From NCBI RefSeq assembly GCF_021155765.1, contig NC_060112.1, positions 23,214,501-23,278,500 of the forward strand: a DNA stretch of 64,000 nt, given 5' to 3'. The stretch comes from Diprion similis (Eukaryota; Arthropoda; Insecta; Hymenoptera; Diprionidae). The position numbers and the translations under genes were made by a program. Numbering within the stretch: the stretch's first letter is position 1; every line of letters begins with the position of its first letter. Under the pieces are notes generated by a model that was not told where the DNA came from, searched no databases, and was given only the letters and a program-made list of their open reading frames with translations. Shown piece after piece: positions 13,010 to 48,096 of this stretch.

Positions 13010-16000
13010 CTAGTTGAATTTGTCGTTGGGAATGCTCTTCTTCGAGACGCCGTTTTGTTCCGGTTGTTTCTTAGCCACCGGCTTCTTTATATAAGTTTTG
13101 TAGTAAAAATCACCAAATAGCACGATCATGAATAGGTTTTGCGGTACGAAAATCAGCGCCGTCCACCTTGGGTATCCACAGTCCTGAACCCACAACAGCT
13201 GCATGAAGTGAAACAGTATAAGCACGAACTGTAATAGCTGCAGTTGCGTTATGTGCTTCTTCCACCATGGCTTGCTGGACCTTAGTGATGTTGCAAGGTA
13301 ATGCGAGTACATTATTACGTGCACGAAAGAATTTATCACTCCTGGAAGAATCGGCGGATGGAAGGAGGCGGTCAGTTTTATTAATGTAATATATAAGACC
13401 AAATATAAAGAAGAGAAGCAAAGCCCACCTAGGAAGGTCCCGTGTCCGCCTGCGAGGTACTTGACGCCACCCCATGTGCCTAACACCATTCCGGCGTGGT
13501 GGTAGACGTGGAGGAACGATATTTGGCTCTGCTTTTTCCGTAAGACGAAAAACACCGTGTCCAACAGGTCTATCAACTTCACTATGAAGTAGAGCCAGAC
13601 AGTCGCTGCGATCTGTTGAAAATTAGAGAAAAAAAAACGTTTGTTCTTTGGTGTGTAATTTATCCTTTATGATCGAGAATCACAATATAACAATATCAGA
13701 GGATTTTTTTATTATCAAAGTAGTAAAAAGTGTTGAATCAAAGATTTAGGACCCCCCCCCCCCCTCTAAAGTTTTAATACTTTACAGATTGTACACTGTT
13801 TCGACTTGGTTTCACTCGCAAACGAGCTCTGTGAAATTCATAGACTTTACGGATTTTCATAACTCTGTTTTTTTGACGTGGGAACAGTTCTGTTCTTTTT
13901 TATTTTCAAATCAAAAACGGTACCTCGATTGCTTTTGGAGTCTTCGAATAGTCGACGGGTTGACAGACGTAACTGTAATCCCAGAGCCAGGCTAAAACGA
14001 GTGCCTGAAAAAGAAAGAAGAATTTGAAAAAGCTGGATAAACCGATATAACCCTAATTATGTACTCGATTACTTCGAGGAAATGTCACATTGGCGATTTT
14101 ACGTAGAATGAAACCGCCTGCATTTATGCAATCCAGAATACGATTTACTGAAATTCGCCTGCGTGTATGCAATTCGAAATACATTTTGCCAACATTCGCC
14201 TGCATTTAGGCAATTCACGGTGAATATTACCAAAGTCCAGCTGCGTTTCATCAATCGACATTTGCCCCATGGCCAATCGTCAACGATAAGCCAGTTAATG
14301 TCAGTCAGTGAAATTTAAAACCAGTTGTCTGGATTTAGAAGGATTTAACCTTTGTTAAATCAGCCTTGAGATTTTTTTACGAATAACATGCTATCATATC
14401 GTGAAGTTTGCGAGTCTGATAAAACGCCTGATGCTTCTCCACCGAGCATACACGCACGCGTTCGGTGCTCGTTAACCTTAGGAGCGTGACTGGCAAACGT
14501 CGAGCTTACCAGCTTTCAATTTGCGCGAAAGAACAACGACAGGAAGTTCTTACGTACGAAGAAAGTAGAAAAGCTTTTTTCTGTCCTTTTTTAGGGTTCC
14601 GTACCTTAGAAGATAAAAATGGAACCCTCACAGGATCACTTCGTTGTCCGTCTGTCAAGGCTCTTTTTCTTAAGAACGGATCGAGGTATCAAGTTGAAAT
14701 TAATACCAAATACTGAGGTCTACGGTCACTTGGAGGTGTGAAAAATTCAAGTATCTAAGTCATCGCAATCAATAGATACCAGATCAATAGATAGATCCAT
14801 CTATGCCACATATTTTGATACTCGCAAACTCACTCAACAAAACATTAAGGGTATATATTTCCTGTTGACCTAGAGTTATGAAATTTTGAGAAAAACACGG
14901 TCTCACAGCACACGTAAAGGAAAAATTCCGGAAATAGTTAATTTGTCGTTATATTACATAAAAAAAAAACATAATCAAGTTTGTACGGAACCTTCAGGGT
15001 GCGAGTTCTGTATACTGTAATACCAGTAAAATTGATCTGATTTTTTTTTTGTTTCGTTCAGTTTTAGCATATTTACCTTGTAAAGCAGGTATGCTGACAC
15101 TATTATTTGTGCGACGTTGTATATTTGCATCACCCTGTCCAGGTTGAACGGTTTCCTGTCTTTCATCAATCTCGGCCCGAGGGACACCACGAAATGAATG
15201 TAGAAAATTATCAAGCCCAGGATAGGCCAAGGTGACCCAATGAGAAACCACGACTGCGTTCTTGGATCTTTGGAGAAAATTGATGGAAAATAAGAAAAAG
15301 AAGAAAAAACCTCAGTTTGGGTATAAGGTCGCACCTTCAACTTTTGTTGCATGGGAATTTAGCATTATATATGAATTGGTCGTGCGAATTCACACCCAAG
15401 TGAGGTTTTTTTTCGTGAGGGAAGAAGCAGAGATTCCAAAGTATCCTGATGAAAACTCCGCTGATAATTCCTGAATTTAACGTTATTATAATTGTTGTAA
15501 TTTTTCACCCGCCCCTCCGTGATCTTCGCTTCCGGTAATTAAACAAGAATTCATCGTCAAGATTTTTGATCCGAATTTTCATGCTTCCTGCAAGCAAGGC
15601 CGTGATACAAACCTTTGTTTTTGACTACGGCTTATCCCTCCCCCGGATGTCTGGAAATTAAAAACGAGATCTTCTGTCAATCACAAGAAGGTTGCCTCTA
15701 TCGACCTTGGAAATTCATAAAAATACAACACGAAGTTATTTTTTAAATGACGAACATAAGTGAACGAAAAATAATCAAAAATCAGAAGATTCAGTGCAAT
15801 TTATCCCTTGACAAAAATCAATTTCATTAGTCGATAGAGGCCGCATCTCTTCGTATGATCGAATAGAAAGTCTTGTTTTTATTTTTCCTGCATTGAAATG
15901 AAAAACGAAAATGCCGTCTCATTTTAATAAAATATGATACATTTATAATCGACAAACACGCCGACCGATTAGTTCGCGAAAATTATTCGCGAAGCAGGAT

Positions 16001-19838: not shown

Positions 19839-22821
19839 TTACTCGGCTTTTAAAGCTTGCGCCGAGCCGTTGGTAACGACGTTGCCATTTTGGACGACCT
19901 TCTGAGACTTTACCGAGGCCTTCTTCATGTAGTTCTTAACGTAAAACGATCCGAACATGTAGAGGAAGGCGGTGGCGTTGGCGAGAAGAAGGAAGGTGAG
20001 CTGTTTGGGAAATTTACAATCGTTGAACAACATCTGGGCGTTGTGCACGAATATTATGCAGAACTGTATGATCTGCATCGAGGTGAGATGCTTCTTCCAC
20101 CAGAGGTACTTCTGCACTTCCGGTCCCATCGCCGAGAGCATGTAGTACGAGTACATGATTATGTGGATGAACGAGTTTATCACGCCGAGCAGCGTTGGGT
20201 GACCACCGGCTACGAACCGGACGCCGATCCATCCGCACATCGGCATCATGGCGTGGTGATAGACGTGGAGGAACGATATTTGGCGTTGCTTCTTTCGCAG
20301 GACGAAGAAGACGGTGTCCAGGAGCTCGACTAGCTTGCAGATGAAGTAGAAGTACACCGCTCTCGCCATCTGCAAGTCGATAGAACGATTTGTAAAGTTA
20401 CAAGTCACTTACAGGTGTTTTCAAAATCATACTATCATTTATAGAATTCTTATGAAAAATTTCTGCTGGGATAATAAGTTACTTGATAGATTTGATCCTC
20501 GTTAAGTTTCGTTCCCGAGGACTTTGGTATTGACGAAAAAGGAAGATATTTCAGAATTTATGTTGTTTACATCATCTCATTAAAGTAAAAGGTGGAAAAT
20601 GCTGGAATAGCTTTCATTCTCAGACGATGATGAACACGTCAAAGATGATACGAATCATTAAAGATAATCCATCGTTGGTACGGATGCCATGTACTATAGA
20701 AAATTCTCCCGAAGTGAGAAGTGAAAGGGAAACTGAAGCGTGTAAAGATCGGATCCCCGTTTCATATTGCAGCCTGAATTGAGAACAATGCCAGGATGAA
20801 GCGTGTTTGCTGATTGATTAAGGCGTGTTATTTATTCGCGATAAAATTTCAATCGTGACTATAACGCTATCGGAAATCTGTTTACGTCAATAATTATTAT
20901 TTCGACCTTGTCTCTGATTCATAAATTTATCGAACCTAAATCAGTTGGCCGATCTTTGAGTAATACTTCGAGTTTGCACGACATTGAAAAGTATGTGTGT
21001 TTAGATTGCGTGGATCAGAGTTTCGTTTACTCGAAGAATGGTGAAATTTATCCACAGGCATCAATATTTTTCGAGACAAAATCCATTGCCACGTCCTTCG
21101 CATATAGTTTGGTCAACATTGATGCAACTGCAGTCTCCGAGTCGCAAAGGCTTCACTAAAATTTCTTATACTTCAAGAATATCTACATAAATGTATAAAT
21201 TTTACCCAAGATTGTTGATAAAAGATAAAAAATATAATTAATATCAATAAAAAATATGTAATGTTTAAACAAACGATTTAAAATTAAAGAGCCGCGATAA
21301 ACGCTATTTTTTTATCGTCATAGTTATTTTGTAACTGCAAAAAACTTTCCACTGAGTGGAAAATTGGCTAAAAAAAAAAAAAAAAAAAAATCAATACATA
21401 ACGATCATCAATTTTTGTAGGCGACTAGCTGTGGTCGACAACCTTAAAAAGGAATTTCGCAACGCGATTGGCTCTGAGTGTTGCGTGTATATAATTTGGC
21501 CAGTCGCAAGCTCGTGAGGTTCGGAGGTTGATTTGCTTCGATCGTTATTGTGTGCTAATCGACCTCCATCGATCTAGGACAAAGGGCCGTTGGACTTGGC
21601 CCTTCCTTACCGATCGAAACTGCAGGGTAGGGTGGTCAAATATTGACTCTTTTTTTTTTTTTAAGGTACCACTCGAAAAATTGGCGACAAATACTGGAAT
21701 TCCCAAATTTTTTTAGCGGTTCCTTAAAAATAAAAAAAATTAAAAAATGGACTCCCCACGTGTATGGGACGAGTGATAATAAGAAAATCGGAGTCATCGA
21801 CCGGCTTTCGGATCGTTAAACTCACCCGCATAGCTTCTGGGCTTTCTGAATAATCAACAGGCTGACACGTGTAGCTGTAGCTGTAGAGCCATCCGGACAT
21901 CAGGCCTTCGTAAACCAAATAGATGCTCGCTAGTACTTGGGTGAAGTTGTAGACGAGAAGCAGCGTCTTCAACGAGTATGGCTTCTTGTCTCTCATGTAA
22001 TTAGGACCAGCCCAGACGCTGAAGTAGATGTACGTCACCACTATCGTCACTATCGGACCTGGACCAGAGATCAGGAACCATTCGCTGGTCCTTGGGTCTG
22101 AGGAAATAAGAGGAAATTTCCGGATGTAAGAAATGATCGTGAATTTGAACGAGATGAGATTGAGACGCTTAATTGGAAGTCGGATTCAGTCATTCCAGCT
22201 CGAGGTCTACCTTGTCACGTGACTTCCGGTGTTGGTACCAAGTGAAGTAAAACGATGGAAATCGCAAAGATCGCTGGAAAGTCATTGGAAATCAATGGAA
22301 GGTCATCGACTTGAAACAATTTCAAAGGACTTCAAGCGATTGGTAATAAATGTTCCTAATGATTTCACTTATTTTCCAACTCATTTCTCATTATTCCAAC
22401 GAACGTTTCAGTCACTTAAGTACCTTTGATTGAGCAAATTAATTTCGGATGGTTAAATTCCTCGTGAAAAACCAATCAACAATCCCTCAAATCCAAATCC
22501 TATTTTTGACTATGGAATTGAGCTTGCGCGTGAGGGGCAAAGTTTTAACGAAAATATACACCGAAATTACCTCGCTTGATTCTTTTCCGTTCCGATTCAT
22601 TATTTTTCTAGCACGTCTAGGTCGAGTTCAACGATCGGTCAAGCTCTGGTTTCATTTTCTATTGGCATTAATTATCATTTAAATATGGTCGTAAAATTAT
22701 GCGCGGACGTTCAACTCGGACTCGGAATATTTCGGGGCAATAGACGGATAATGCAGGCGATTAAATGCTTACCATTCTTGTTGTACATCACGTCCCGATA
22801 CCATTCCAATATTCCGGACAT
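19839..22821 (-). CDS. ELO-family very-long-chain fatty acid elongase (paralogue C), three coding exons
   Basis: Predicted ER condensing enzyme of very-long-chain fatty acid synthesis. Coding exons: 22821-22773 (49 nt), 22097-21826 (272 nt), 20369-19839 (531 nt), totalling 852 nt (283 aa). Marks: DPRTSEWFLISGPGP from residue 17, YTCQPVDYSESPEAMR ending at 107, LVELLDTVFFVLRKKQ from 120, HVYHH at 142-146, MYSYYM at 179-184, and the KYLWWKKHLT segment that follows. Exon 2 equals the 191 and 81 nt exons of B joined, and the last exon has none of the introns of A or B, so C has the simplest gene structure. The tail (KNYMKKASVKSQ onward) is basic and then polar. An acceptor at about 22863 lies 41 nt before the ATG, showing that a noncoding exon exists further right. 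It is the most canonical of the three. Confidence 0.95.
20856..21426 (+). repeat. Duplicated segment, copy 1 (intron 2 of elongase C)
   Basis: About 570 bp, nearly identical to 23910-24477 in the same orientation, from TGACTATAACGC to TGTAGGCGACT, with unrelated flanks on both sides. It contains a frame open to 21159 whose protein matches copy 2, but no ATG precedes the shared part (TAA at 20842-20844), so this copy looks 5'-truncated. An A-rich tract of 21 bases (21371-21391) is internal, not terminal. No terminal inverted repeats were seen. Confidence 0.9.
21488..21495 (+). promoter_or_regulatory. Isolated TATATAAT box
   Basis: A TATA-like octamer in a locally GC-richer stretch, just right of duplication copy 1 and inside elongase C intron 2. 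No clear initiator or downstream gene was found. Confidence 0.12.
22214..22223. promoter_or_regulatory. GTCACGTGAC palindromic E-box (Mitf/TFEB/USF type)
   Basis: An exact 10-bp palindrome of the extended E-box class, followed by ACTTCCGG (ETS-like), in elongase C intron 1. Binding by bHLH-zip factors is an inference from the motif alone. Confidence 0.3.
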
Positions 22822-39004: not shown

Positions 39005-42000
39005 ATGTCCGTCATCGTTGATCGGCTCCGTAGCATCATGCAGAGCAAAAACTCTCGCCCGGCAAACACTGAGAAAGAGGTGATTGGAAAGGGTCGTAGA
39101 GATGATTTTTATCTCGATATTTTTTATTGTAATTAGTAATCAATCCTGTTGTTTTCCGATTTTTAGATCAAGGGATACCGAGTGACCAACGCCGATCGAA
39201 CTCGGAGATTTGGAGTCGCCTGTAGGGATTTTCAAGAGCTTAAACGCAAAGCCTGCGCAAAGTTCAACGTGAGTTGTGTTTTTATACCTGCGAAAAAACG
39301 AAAACTATAATTTTTCGTCTCGTTAATTTCATGGCAAAAGCATTTACCACCGATTTAACCGAGCGGGGAAATTACTGCTTGCTTAATCATCTCATCCGCC
39401 GAAAGTGTCCGGATCAAATTTCAAATGAAAGTTGTTTGCGTGTAGTCAAAAGTCGTCGAAATTTTGGCTGATACTTAAACGTTTGAAATATTACAAAAAA
39501 GGTTTTGTGAGTTACGGTTTAAGTTACAAAAGAAAGAAGAAAGTATTTCTCCGATTTTTCTTCTTTCACAATCAGTTAAACTTGAATTAAAAATATTCCG
39601 AGCGTTAACTTATCTAGAACCTTACCAATCGAGTGTCATTTCAATACGGCTCACATGATAAGAAAGGAGTTTTCCGAGAGTTCGATAGTTTTTTTCAACT
39701 CCTCTTTTTTCCACGCGCAACGGCTGCCATTTATTAGCATAAGAGCAATATTGATAAACTAGAGATCACCAGATCACGTCCCAGTTTCCTGTTTCCGCAG
39801 TCTGCAACCGCCTGATGCAATCGCGTGCAAGTGCATAAACCCGGCCGACGTTGCAGTTGCCGGCTTTATCGAATGGGCCGAGCCCCGAGCGTCGATGCTA
39901 TGATTTTTCGAACCCCCGCAACGTCACTGCACATACACTTAGCTACATCCACTTCCGGCTGCGTGAGTCTCGGTCAAGGTCGATTACACCGACGGATCGT
40001 CTCCGTGCGCTTAACGAACCCTTGCAAATTCGATTTCAGCGTTTCCCCCGAAACTGGGTCACCAGCCCCTCTCTGCCCCCCTTCACCCCCCTTTCACTAC
40101 CCTCCTCCCCACCCTTCTTTCTCTTCCACGTTGTTCCTGGTTTTCCGTTCTCAATTTTCAAAGATTTTCTTGAAAGAATAATTTTCAAAATTAAGGAAAA
40201 ATTCGATTTTGTTTTACAAGATTTAAATGTTTACTTACTTTTTTTGATATGATCTAATTATTTTCAAGTACATGTACACCACTTTATGCATATTTATCTT
40301 GATACGAAAAGCAGAAAGTTTTCTTTCGTGATATTTATCCAGTATGGATTTTGCTTGATTCGAAGAAGACGCAATTGAATCTGCAAAAAATTTTCCGGGT
40401 TCAAACTGTTCAGTGTTTGATTCTCTTCTTAATTTCTGTTTTTTTTTTTTTTTTTTTTCTTCCCTTACTAGGAACAAGTAAATAACATCTAAGGATTATT
40501 CAGTTATAACTAAGACTCTGTAATTAAATTTAATTAAAATATTCTCAGATAATGTTGAACGTAAAAATTACCCTCATTGAGAAAATATTATTCGAATTAA
40601 TTGGTCAATATTTTGTTGATTCGCAAGGTCTTAAATTGTTCGAATTGTCATCAGACTCGCCTCTATGCTTTATAGGAAATTTAAGAGAAGCAAGTTAGTC
40701 TTATTCGATCCAAACAAACGTGCTAATTTTGGAATATCGATGCAACGAATATTCACATATTAATTGGCATTTTCGCATTCATATTCGCAATTGCAAAAAT
40801 CGTGCGAATATTTTGTGAACGTGACGATTCGCAACCGAAATCGTATTCAGGAATACTTAAAACTTTACATTCGTTACATCACTATTATGGAATGAAAAAA
40901 ATCAAGGACAACAAGTAAATAAATATTTATATATTGTTGATAAAGGGAATTTTTCCTTCAGTCTAAAAACGATAAACAATATTTATTTATTTGTTTTCCA
41001 GTTCCCTCAGACTTTTTTCTATAATAAATAAACTATGTGTTTTTTTTTCTCGTAACTTATCAGCATCATTGATTCTAAAACCAGTTGCATCACTTCGGTT
41101 TGTTTACATTCACGGTGCTAATTTATTAAAATTCGTCTTATTCTTCAGCCAGTTTTGAAATTTTTTTTGTTTGTTTAGCGAAAGTCAAACTTTTCCGGAT
41201 CAACCGTTATGATAATGTGAATTTTTTTTCCAGATAGTAGTACTAATACCCACTAAAACCTTACAGTTAGAAATTTTTTTTTAACATTGTTACTATTAGA
41301 ATAAAATGTATATGCTGAGAATGTGTCCGCAAAAACACGTTTATTCTAAATGGGGAGGTTAAAAACTAAAAAAAAAAACTAGATTACTGTTTTTGAATTA
41401 TTTAAAATTGATTAGGGGTTGAGATGAAATAAATTTGTCATCGTTTTATTAGATTATTAAAACTTTCTTATTAACTCGCGTTCTTGGCTGTCTGTTTGTT
41501 TATCTGTTCGGTAGAAATTTGACAATCGATCTGTTAAACTAAATTCCCGATGAGCCAGAGATTTGAAATTTTAAACATAGCTCAGAACTGGATGGAAATG
41601 CAACATCATTTGTTTGTTTGAAAAAATTTAACTTCTCTAATCCTTTTCTTGGTCCCATCCAAAATCGATTGCAAAATTTCATCCACACAAGACTAAAAAG
41701 CAGAAAATAATTTGTTTTCGTCAATTCACATCGTTTTTAAAACGGACTGAAAAGCATAAAATATTATCTCCTAAGCCCGATTACAGATTAGATGATAGCG
41801 AAGATTGTGTAGATAAAAAAAAAAAAAAAAAAATATTCAATTTATTTGAATAATTTTTCCTCATTCTAATTTCTACCCCATTCGAATTCGCAGATTTTAA
41901 ACCCCGATGAGCGGGACAAAGTGACGATTTATCTCGTCGACGGATCGATAATCGACGACGAATATTTCCACACGGTTGAACCGCAGACTACTTTGATATT

Positions 42001-45000
42001 GCAGCGACACGGAGAGAAGTTTTTGTCAGGTGAGCAGCAGTCTCTTCAATTATTTTCTCTTTTCTTTTTTTTCAAACTCTAATTTTGGTTTCTCAATTTA
42101 TATACCTCGTTCGCAATTACAGGCAAAATTTTACTTTCGCGGCTTACAGATGTCGCAAATTAAATTCGTTGAGCTAAAACCCTAGTGGAGGTCTCGAAAT
42201 TATTTTGCATGCAAATAACGAACGTGAGTGAAGATTCGCGCCGGTATGTCGTGTCGATAAAACGCGAAATGCACTTTTTATGAAGCTTATAATTTGTTAC
42301 ATCCGTGAGCAACGGAGATCTCTTTAAAAATAAGAATTTAAAATAATACTGGGGTTATAAATATAAGAAATGCTTGGATATCTAGGAGAGACACTGAAAC
42401 TGATCGTGAGAAACTTTTTTTTTGCTTAAGCAGTAAATTTAATCGTCATATAATCATTATCTTTGCAACGCGTTTTGAAATCTAGTATTCAACAATGCCA
42501 ATATGATGAAAGAGAAATTTGTCAGTGAATTTATAGTATAAAACAGTATTTCGAATAAAATAAATAATCGTTTAGAAGAATGAAATTTCAAACGACTTTA
42601 CTATTTGACTTTAAATAATTTCGAAGCGATTTGAAACGAAGCATCGATGTCTGAGTTCGTCTGCTTCCTGATTCTAATAATAACTGTCTAAGTACGTTTC
42701 GAAAAATCTCCACGTCAGTTTAAAATTCTGGCAATTCAATGAATATTCAAAGTTCGATTGTCCTCGGGTTACAAAAAGTCCGCCTAACAATGACGAGGTG
42801 AAAAATTTCATGATATTCTTTTTCACTGTATAATCACATGTATTTGGGCCTTACATTTTCCTTGGTAATTAATTAAACGATCCCCGGATTTATAATAAAG
42901 TTCAGAGGACAGTATACCGCACGATTTGCAGAACGTTTGCAATTGCGATTCGGCATACTTGCTATAATTTATGAAAATGCAATCTGAACCAATTTTCGTC
43001 TTCGGTATAATTATAATGTATTATTCGCTCGTATTCGATGTCGATGAAGATCGGCGGGAAAAAAATATCGGACTTCGTTCTTGTTGTTGTTTGTTTATTT
43101 TTTCTCTGTTTTTTTTATTCTACAATTTTACTATTGAGAAAATCGAGGAATTTAAAAAATTTTTGAGAGACGACTGTTGACTTATTATAATATTATTTTG
43201 TATGCGCATTAGGGCTTCTTTGTTATTCATGACAAGTAGCAAAATACTGTTGGTAAATAAATTTCTAAACGAAATAGCGAAGATTCGTAACTTTTTGTTG
43301 TGGATTCATGATGATGTTGAAATTTTCAACAACGTAATTTTTTAAACGTGTTTCTTGTTGCTTCTTGCGTCTAATGTTTATGTATTCTAAGTCGCGAAGT
43401 TTAAGAAGACTATAATTAATTTTTCGGTTCTTTATGTATGTACGTATAGGTTGACGTATGTATATGTGAATTTTTTTTTAAATAAGCAAGTACTGTTAAA
43501 AAAATCACTGTAAATTCACATGTCGTCTCTTTAATCAACTCGACGGTAAAAATGCTCGGAATATCAAACACTTTAGTCTCATTAAAATGTCGCGCGTAAC
43601 CCCGTGGAACTTTAAAAAACGTCACTATATTTACTCTAGCATCTATTGCTGAAACATCTTAATTGCCAGGTATGTCCACTGAGGTTAAAAAGTCGTCGAA
43701 TCAACTAAATGCACGATCACAGACGTTGAAATGAATATTTATTTTTGTCAATTTGATGGTTCAACAAAATGTTTAGTTGATTTAAGGGGAATCAAGAAAA
43801 AGTCCAAAACTCAAAGTGTGGGAACCGTAAAAAAGATATTTAAAAATTGTTCATAACAAAATCTGAAAATTAACTCAAAAAACAAAAGGCAAAACGTCTT
43901 ATTCAAGGCAAATCGAGAGAGATTTTTTCGTTCCATTTGTTTCACTGTCGTCAAAGATGAACAAAAATTCATTGTTTATTGAGCTGTCGAAAAGTTGTTG
44001 TTTTTTTTTTTTTGTCTTTTGTTTCACTTTCTATCTCGAAAAGATTGAATAAGAAAGTTAAAGAAAGGAGTTTGAATTCCTGTCATTATTCTGTTACCAA
44101 TAATTTTTTTTTATCTAATATGTTATTTATAAATATAATAATTTATTCTCGATTTAGACGCTGAAATATTCTACAACACGCTGCGTCAAGTCAATCTCGA
44201 GTTCATAACGACAGGCGATGCGATATCGAGCTTTCTGACCGAGAATCTAAAGTCGAAAATCGCCGTTTTGAACAAAGCTCTGAACAAGGATGACGAAAAG
44301 ACGAGACTCAGTTCGAGAGAGGATCACCCCGAGTGGTTTAAAAATTTGGAGACGACGGCGACGACGAAGGTAAGAATATGGATGGAAGATAAATAGAAAA
44401 AAATAAAATAAAAAATAACAATCAACAATGTCCATTTTTTTTACTTTGAGAATTTTTTTTATCATTATTGTTATTCTTATTATTTTATCTAGATTTATTG
44501 ACCGATTTCACGTGCATGTAAAAATTACTCGAATGAAGCGATTTCGAATTACGTCATGATTCGTTTCGCAGAAAAACTGTATTATGTAATCGTATAAATC
44601 ATATTCGAAATTTCGTTAGATTGACCTATAATAAAATCTTAAATTCGAAAATTAGCCATTCGCTGCGGTTAAAAGGCGGATCGTATTTCTTCACGTTTTT
44701 GTTTTGCCCACTTCTGCTTATGAAGTAACTTCTAAAAGTCCGATCAGAAGTATGCGCAGGACTCGAATTATGTTTAAAAGTATAGTAATAATAACACCGT
44801 TCGAGACGATATTTGGTTCTGACTAATGAACGTCAAATTTTTGTTTCTTTTACATTACTAGTAAGGGAAAAAATCATTTTTTTTTTTTTATCAAAGTTTG
44901 CTTTTGTAGAAACCAGAGTGATTTTTACAACTTTGCAAAAAAAAACTGAAATTTTCGTAATTTCATTTTAAATTACAATCAGAAAAACTTTTCTTGAACA

Positions 45001-45488: not shown

Positions 45489-48096
45489 CAACAATAATAA
45501 TCAGGAAAATTACCATAAAGCTTCGAGATAATCAAGCTAAATTCCCATTTAAGTATGTACATATGGATTAACAGTTTTATTTTATTTTTTCAAAATACAC
45601 GTAATGAATCACGAAAATGTTCGCAAATCGGTAAATTATAATTTGAAAAAATTCAAACTCTTCGTTGGTAATAAATAGAAATTGTCAAATTACAGTTTAG
45701 TTTCGTATTTCCAGGAGGCCTACATGCACCGCAGATGCCAGGACAGGATCCGGTGTTACTTGTACAAAACGATCGATCAAATAAAGAGTTCGGACGTATA
45801 TGCGAAGAACGAATCAGCGAAGCGTCGTCTGTTGCACGCAATCACGTATTTCAAGCTCCAATTGAAGGAGGATCACTGTTTTGGTTTTTACTTTGACCGA
45901 AGCTGCGCAAGAGGGGTTAAAAACCGGTCAAAGATCGGCAGACCGATTGCCGATAAGGAAGAAGAGGAAGAAGAAGAAGCAGAAAAAACTGCAAATTTGA
46001 GTTCAGACGAGACGGATTTCGGCGCCTCGATTTTCTCATGCCACCATCTTCATTGTCCGTGCAAAATCGGCGCCGCCTCTGCAGGTTTCTGGTCGCTATG
46101 GAAGAGCGACCGATTTCTCGCCGAGTTTTTCCCCGAGGAAGACGAAACCGACGAGACGGATGCCAGACGAATTTCTCCCGTTAAAAAAACAACCGCGAAC
46201 AAGGCCGAATCGGCCGATTTTTGTCCCTATGAAATCGGCAAAAACGACGAAACGGAGCCGCGATTCGCGCTCTGTAATTCCGACGGTGAATTCAAATGCG
46301 ACGGCGTCTGGAACGCCGATCGCTGTGCCTACGGTGAAAGGCACTCCATAAATCCTTACCGATCGTACGAGGAATTAGTTCTCTTCTCTACATGGAATTT
46401 CGATCACAGGTACTCTAGTCCTTGATTTTTTTTTTCTTTTATTCTGATCTGTTGCGCAAAGGCAATCGCGTGACTAAGCAATATTCATAATCGACACGGC
46501 GTTTCTTTCTTTATTGTTTAATTTTTAAAAAGTCACGTTTCAAGATTCAACAGATATTTTTCTCCAAAGTTCCTTACCGATATTCTTTTTTTTTTTTTTG
46601 TTTTTGTTTTTTTTTTCCTTACATCTCGTTTCTTTTTTTTATTCTCAGGATTACAACCGGATGTTTGGATAGGAAATTTTTCGTAAATTATCTGTCCTCG
46701 CTCACATTCGCAAGTTATTTATTTTTTTTTTTACGTGCTTAAGACAATTTTAGACATCTTATTATGATACTTGAACGATTTTGAGACATTTCCTGCATTA
46801 AACGCAACGCAATTAATACATTGATACAAATCCAGAGACTTTTTTTTTTAAAACATTAACTACTAGTCGGTTAACAGTGTGTAAAATAATTTTTCATCAC
46901 TGAAAAGGAATTTTGAAAAGCGATGTAATACGATCCCGTTTCAGGGGAGAAATCAAACATTTATAAATATATTTATGACTGACAAAAAAATGTGTCACAA
47001 TTTTTTCGTCTAACTATTCAAAACTGATAATATCAGTGAAATAAAGTCTTGTGAAAAATTTAAAAATATGATTTCTAATAATGATTCTGCGTTGGAGAAA
47101 AAAAAACAAAAAAAACAAACGTCATTATACTCTAACAACGACGAGAGAAGTAAAAATCTTTTCAGTCAAAGAATCTGCATCAAAGTTTCCTTGGATTTTA
47201 TTGCATAATTTTTATTACAGATATAAATTTTTGTTTAGTTAGACGGTAGTTATATTACGAGGTCATGGCTTTATTATATATATATATATATATGTGGATA
47301 TACGATCAGCCAGCCTTCGCATTTTTACGCATTGTGCGTTTAACGATCCGTCAATGCTTCGGGCAATCATCACCTTTGATGAGCTTGCAGGGTTTGGCAA
47401 TCCTAACGATCTGCGATTCTTAGTTCATAATAACTATGTACCGACGTGGCTATGGGATCATCCTTGACGCACAATGAAATTTGCGAGAGCAAATTAGAAA
47501 AAAAAAGAGAAATCATAATCAAAAGAAAAAAGATGTAAAGGTGTCGAAACGTCTGGGTCATGGCTAGTCTTTGTCATCTATATATGTAGATAGCCGATTT
47601 GAACCAGAGGATGACTCGGCGAAAATTCACCTCGCATCTCTGTTCAAATAGAAAGATTATTGTACACTGTATACATATCTATATACGGTCTATGACGTGT
47701 CGTGTACTTGTATTTCTACATAATTTAGAAGCAGTCATTGAAGAAGTAACGCGTGTTGCAAAAAAGACACGCATGGCAAAAACAATACAAGATTATAAAA
47801 TTATGGAATAATATTTAAGCGATGAAACTAATTGATTGATCCTCGTTTAATTGATCTTCAAATTGAAAAAATCTGTGCCATCTATTTTTATATCGATCAT
47901 TATTATAGTCTTTTTTCTATCTAATTTCAGGATCGAGAGATCGAGAACTCTGATACCGAATCTGCTGCGAGCGTCTGAGGAAAAGGCGATAAGTCGTCAG
48001 GATGTTGTCAACCTCTACGAGAATATATTCACGGTGAAAAATCTTCGACTGGTGCACATAGTTTGCCACGATAAGGGAGCCCACAAAGTTCAATGA
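39005..48096 (+). CDS. DFFB: Caspase-activated DNase (DFF40/CAD, Drep4-type), six exons
   Basis: Apoptotic endonuclease that, once freed from its inhibitor ICAD/DFF45, cuts chromatin between nucleosomes. Coding exons: 39005-39079, 39167-39268, 41894-42029, 44158-44369, 45715-46409, 47931-48096; total 1386 nt, 461 aa, all GT/AG. The first in-frame ATG is at 39005. CIDE-N domain at residues 26-104 (FGVACRDFQELKRKAC; YLVDGSIIDDEYF). The nuclease part shows PEWFKNLE, RIRCYL, YFDR, RHSINPY, LFSTWNFDH (Asp405-His406) and VHIVCHDKGAHK, with His449, Cys452, His453 and His458 in the positions of the known catalytic and zinc residues. The human enzyme is about 338 aa; most of the excess is an acidic insert at about 240-358 holding three DETD tetrapeptides and a CHHLHCPC cluster. 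The protein stops soon after the last His, lacking the basic tail of vertebrate CAD. The inhibitor gene is not in the window. Confidence 0.95.
39269..41893 (+). other. Large intron 2 of the DNase gene
   Basis: A 2.6-kb intron with a GTGAGT donor and a TTCGCAG acceptor. It includes a C-rich stretch near 40070-40120 and poly-T runs; no nested gene was recognised. Confidence 0.8.
42030..44157 (+). other. Intron 3 of the DNase gene
   Basis: A 2.1-kb phase-1 intron (GTGAGC donor, TTTAG acceptor), AT-rich and without other features. Confidence 0.8.
45448..45501. repeat. (AAT)n microsatellite in DNase intron 4
   Basis: About 14 AAT units followed by ACA/ATA variants, inside the intron 44370-45714. 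Confidence 0.9.
46410..47930 (+). other. Intron 5 of the DNase gene
   Basis: A 1.5-kb phase-2 intron (GTACTC donor, TTTCAG acceptor) with a TA tract near 47275-47292. The stretch at 47295-47475 is less AT-rich than its surroundings, but no RNA gene could be recognised in it. Confidence 0.8.

Follow-up and report, generated by a model that had tools for sequence, protein, structure and literature searches.

A caspase-type DETD insert in the caspase-activated DNase of Diprion similis and its possible role as a cut linker

In mammals, the caspase-activated DNase (CAD) is under a single caspase lock, which sits on its inhibitor, and the human inhibitor DFF45 carries a DETD caspase site. The CAD of the solved structure 1v0d, which we take to be the mouse enzyme, is presumably switched on through ICAD cleavage alone. 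For Drosophila CAD, the work of Yokoyama et al. (2000, J Biol Chem 275:12978) has the words 'a novel activation mechanism' in its title and reportedly describes active fly CAD as a p32 and a p20 chain derived from one precursor.

The excerpted text of PMC4229683 places CAD among caspase targets, terms Drep-4 caspase-regulated, describes Drep-1 as 'also cleaved by caspases', and names cleavage of the inhibitor as what controls Drep-4. In the excerpts of PMC8891305, PMC7617294 and PMC13362088 the switch is likewise cleavage of the inhibitor, and according to the excerpt of PMC7617294 sublethal caspase activity leads, by way of CAD, to DNA breaks in the blood progenitors of flies. For DETD together with caspase and Drosophila a single paper was listed, on a caspase-2 tool, and DETD as a word is absent from the 15 papers listed, out of 110, for DETD, ICAD and DFF45.

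The CAD gene and its extra stretch

The window, that is the whole stretch of 64,000 nucleotides analysed here (contig C8, positions 23214501-23278500), contains a complete CAD/DFF40 gene on the + strand with six exons, five GT...AG introns and a spliced translation of 461 aa; genome searches covered the 269-Mb assembly of 60 contigs. Exon 1 (39005..39079) holds the start codon, placed at the first ATG of an open frame that has no earlier M, and a further exon upstream is possible. Splicing and Pfam matches put the start of the CIDE-N domain (residue 27) in exon 2 (39167..39268), the remainder of this domain, to residue 102, in exon 3 (41894..42029), and the start of the DFF40 domain in exon 4 (44158..44369). 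Exon 5 (45715..46409) encodes the first half of the nuclease, the insert, the zinc segment, HSINPY and D405/H406, and exon 6 (47931..48096) encodes H449, C452, H453, H458 and the stop, all on the + strand. The Pfam matches themselves are strong for both CIDE-N (PF02017, residues 27-102, E 5.8e-19) and the DFF40 nuclease domain (PF09230, residues 126-460, E 3.5e-63). Both PF09230 matches in the genome are exons of this gene, which makes it the single DFF40 gene detected in the assembly. Searches with the whole CAD and with a two-sequence alignment found no relative among viral and prokaryote contigs, a collection that holds no animal genomes. Three matches to ELO (GNS1/SUR4) fatty-acid elongases lie upstream of CAD on the - strand (1724-2158, 13010-13666 and 19839-20408) in what appears to be a cluster.

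The closest solved structure is 1v0d (E 6.1e-38), which has the same domains. Residues C370, C379, H385, D405, H406, H449, C452, H453 and H458 are all kept and correspond to C229, C238, H242, D262, H263, H304, C307, H308 and H313 of 1v0d, which we take to be its zinc and catalytic residues. The two proteins differ in an insert that 1v0d lacks together with its DETD words. The preliminary description of this locus had noticed an insert of about 115 residues between YFDR and the zinc/HSINPY part; by alignment to 1v0d it comprises 118 aa (residues 240-357; 45907..46260, + strand), lies at that place and is wholly contained in exon 5, with borders that MAFFT shifts by a few residues relative to the first 1v0d alignment. 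Likeness to Drosophila CAD/Drep4 was seen in the CIDE-N domain (PDB 5xpb, E 1e-6), and the comparison with Drep4 covers CIDE-N alone, as its PDB matches are the 100-residue CIDE construct 5xpb/5xpc.

The insert has a GC content of 0.51 against 0.27-0.34 across the five CAD introns, and its frame stays open over all 118 codons, for which base composition gives a chance of about 0.003. We trained a codon score on 1055 codons of the same genome (elongase, caspase, ICAD-like and the remaining CAD) against introns. The insert scores 0.38 bits/codon in its coding frame, against 0.17 and 0.20 when read in the two remaining forward frames and at most 0.23 on the opposite strand; the CAD flanks of the insert, both part of the training set, score 0.44 and 0.48. 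By the same measure 123 intron windows have a mean of -0.24 and a maximum of 0.35, and the insert is barely above this best intron window. A retained intron is unlikely in view of the GC content, the open frame, the exon-like codon use and the lack of a good GT donor by eye. Acceptor-like sites occur inside the insert at 46084, 46125, 46137 and 46141, and alternative splicing may take place within it. A mobile element or repeat is also unlikely, as the own genome matches only the insert itself, once by DNA in a search that passes over simple repeats and once by protein.

In composition the insert stands apart from the remaining CAD, with 23% acidic residues against 14% and a computed pI of 4.7, and a Pfam search found no family that matches it. 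It contains an acidic run, E257-E263, encoded by a run of GAA/GAG triplets (45958..45978, +), and a Cys/His cluster, CHHLHCPC (residues 284-291; 46039..46062, +), which is possibly a metal site. FoldIndex was set aside as evidence of disorder, since its values are mostly negative over the insert and equally at or below about zero at the conserved residues 200-230 and 360-410. A 19-base internal repeat (46053 and 46221) is probably due to chance, as estimated by hand.

DETD words in the nuclease, the caspases and the inhibitor candidate

The segment 46006-46161 (+) translates as DETDFGAS...EEDETDETD. DETD occurs at residues 273-276, followed by F (46006..46017), at 318-321, followed by E (46141..46152), and at 321-324, followed by A (46150..46161), all on the + strand; a near-copy without the P1 Asp, DETE, is found at 353-356 (46246..46257, +). 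The preliminary description had reported these three DETD words, and its residue numbers are exact on the spliced 461-aa translation. The overlap of the last two that it noted was likewise seen, with the Ala coming after the 321-324 copy. Caspase-type sites inside the nuclease, the mark of a CAD of the fly type, are thus present as a motif in three copies. D324, with Ala behind it, presumably has a better P1' residue than the other sites, Phe after D276 and Glu after D321 being, as we assume, unfavoured.

When the residues of the insert were shuffled 200,000 times, at least one DETD arose in 0.57% of the shuffles, at least two in 0.001% and three in none; two non-overlapping copies arose in 1 of 50,000 shuffles. 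These odds need caution because the copies are not independent: the second and third overlap as DETDETD, and the first and third are the same 12 bases. One DETD word could have been multiplied by local duplication or slippage. The looser word D..D is far less telling, with at least three in 1.4% of the insert shuffles; the whole CAD has four, and at least four occur in 18% of whole-protein shuffles.

A caspase search of the genome gave 20 exon matches, and six caspase regions were examined, with a match at C4:14.57 Mb left out. A QAC active-site piece is found in four of these regions; the one at C4:23.7 Mb has QTC, with no linker read, and the one on C14 has no such piece. Just past the active site, three of the four QAC pieces have xxTD and a small residue, namely DETD-Ser in the caspase on C9, TETD-Gly in the piece at C1:1.008 Mb and TQTD-Ser in the piece at C1:8.409 Mb, and the fourth has FDDVQAEAV in place of this linker. 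The latter belongs to a cluster of caspase-like exons at C1:8.408-8.421 Mb, in which it has lost xxTD and its neighbour keeps TQTD-Ser.

The C9 caspase, joined from three exons, has its top matches among 134 sequences in Sf-caspase-1 (1m72, E 8.4e-48; 2nn3) and drICE (3sir, E 1.8e-45). Its DETD-Ser aligns with TETD-Gly of Sf-caspase-1; drICE also has TETDG at the linker, although its alignment opens a gap of two residues ahead of the final Asp. For 3sip_B (109 residues), which we take to be the drICE small subunit, the match begins with the final D of DETD (query residue 29) and with chain residue 2, and that chain therefore begins at the linker border. As judged from these alignments, the word in the CAD insert is identical to the inter-subunit linker word of the species' own effector caspase. 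In most caspases this linker is cut by an initiator caspase, and the shared word thus points to a general compatibility with caspases and not to the particular caspase that would cut CAD.

The CIDE-N search of the genome gave six exon matches at three loci, CAD itself, one on C3 and one on C10. The C3 gene looks Drep2-like by eye. The C10 gene encodes a protein of 203 aa whose CIDE-N domain spans residues 14-88 (E 1e-27), and it is, from its sequence, an ICAD candidate. Its assignment is not secure, because the match to DFF-C is weak (E 0.0065) and under the cut-off, and because its CIDE-N is nearer to CIDE-A (E 5.2e-14), CIDE-B and DREP2 than to ICAD (1f2r_I, E 4.3e-8). A genome search with PF09033 (DFF-C) gave no match, but its control was silent too, which makes this negative uninformative. 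The sole D..D word of the C10 protein is DDTD-Ser at 103-106, shortly past CIDE-N; the pattern [DT][EDQ]TD[SGA], chosen after this word had been seen, occurs in 96 of 20,000 shuffles of the protein. The weaker standing of the candidate leaves the CAD motifs untouched and our confidence unchanged. A protein with CIDE-N is reported from a betabaculovirus group in the excerpt of PMC5245865, and one may speculate that it acts on insect CAD/ICAD.

A proposed two-chain CAD and competing explanations

The reading that we consider probable is that caspase cuts both the inhibitor and the nuclease, and that CAD stays together as an active two-chain enzyme of 32 + 21 or 38 + 16 kDa, the insert in the nuclease domain serving as a caspase-cut linker. 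By analogy with the family, ICAD would hold CAD inactive via the CIDE-N domains of both proteins. Upon apoptosis an effector caspase would cut ICAD, with DDTD106 as the candidate site, and would also cut CAD after D276 and/or D324, where the motifs are observed. By analogy with the two-chain CAD of the fly, the two halves of the protein, one bearing CIDE-N and the other the catalytic residues, would remain joined as a nicked two-chain enzyme, and nicked CAD, rid of its acidic tether, would then cut chromatin. The predicted masses are 32.2 + 21.3 kDa for a cut after D276 and 37.7 + 15.9 kDa for a cut after D324, and both cuts would free a 48-residue piece of 5.4 kDa that contains the Cys/His cluster. 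In these predictions CIDE-N is on the first chain and all zinc and catalytic residues are on the last, downstream of the insert. A similar linker is known from Sf-caspase-1 (1m72) and drICE (3sir), where cutting at xETD yields a two-chain enzyme; these enzymes are unrelated to CAD, and the logic of the cut linker is all that they have in common with it. If active fly CAD is the p32/p20 pair that it is reported to be, its sizes are close to the 32.2 + 21.3 kDa predicted for D276; the present CAD would then resemble the caspase-processed CAD of Drosophila and is probably of that known kind.

The proposal of the preliminary description, that a caspase cut may be built into the nuclease, is strengthened by the identity of DETD with the linker of the effector caspase and by DDTD-Ser in the ICAD candidate. 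Several features weigh against the two-chain reading. Repetition of the local DNA ties the DETD copies to one another, the sites at 276 and 321 have Phe and Glu as their P1' residues, and the switch given in the excerpts of PMC8891305, PMC7617294, PMC13362088 and PMC4229683 is cleavage of the inhibitor. The local repetition can also be explained by a fast-growing acidic loop of low complexity, in which slippage of GAC-GAR-ACN-GAY made the DETD words and cutting, if possible, leaves activity unaffected. The run of GAA/GAG triplets, the repeated 12-base word, the excess of acidic residues over the rest of CAD and the lack of any Pfam match all agree with such a loop, which we regard as a tentative alternative of some weight; against it stand the rarity of two non-overlapping DETD words in the shuffles and the recurrence of this very word in the linker of the own effector caspase. 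The recurrence of the caspase word is left unexplained if the insert acts without proteolysis, for example by mimicking DNA at the active site or by binding histones or metal via CHHLHCPC. The E257-E263 run, the Cys/His cluster and the low pI would suit such a function, which we nevertheless hold to be improbable.

Whether a cut would activate CAD or shut it off had been left undecided in the preliminary description. A cut inside the DFF40 domain would sever the catalytic half from the part that carries CIDE-N, and could thus end CAD activity and limit DNA damage. However, the sites lie in additional sequence that is missing from 1v0d, and activation is preferred because the zinc and catalytic residues share one fragment downstream of the insert and because the title of the fly work speaks of an activation mechanism; a shut-off cut is in our estimate very improbable. 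A stronger version of activation, which we think rather doubtful, would make CAD a true two-chain zymogen resembling an effector caspase, with cuts at DETD, the word of the caspase's own linker, after D276 and D324 releasing a propeptide that bears the Cys/His cluster. Under this zymogen reading, the xxTD word common to CAD, ICAD and caspase would therefore mark a second safety lock, placed in the nuclease.

Returning to the preferred two-chain reading, its significance lies in the control of DNA cutting in insects. The xxTD words common to a caspase, the ICAD candidate and the CAD of one genome make the idea testable by point mutants. If insect CAD must itself be cut in addition to its inhibitor, the pathway would have two locks, and sublethal caspase activity might then open one of them and not the other.
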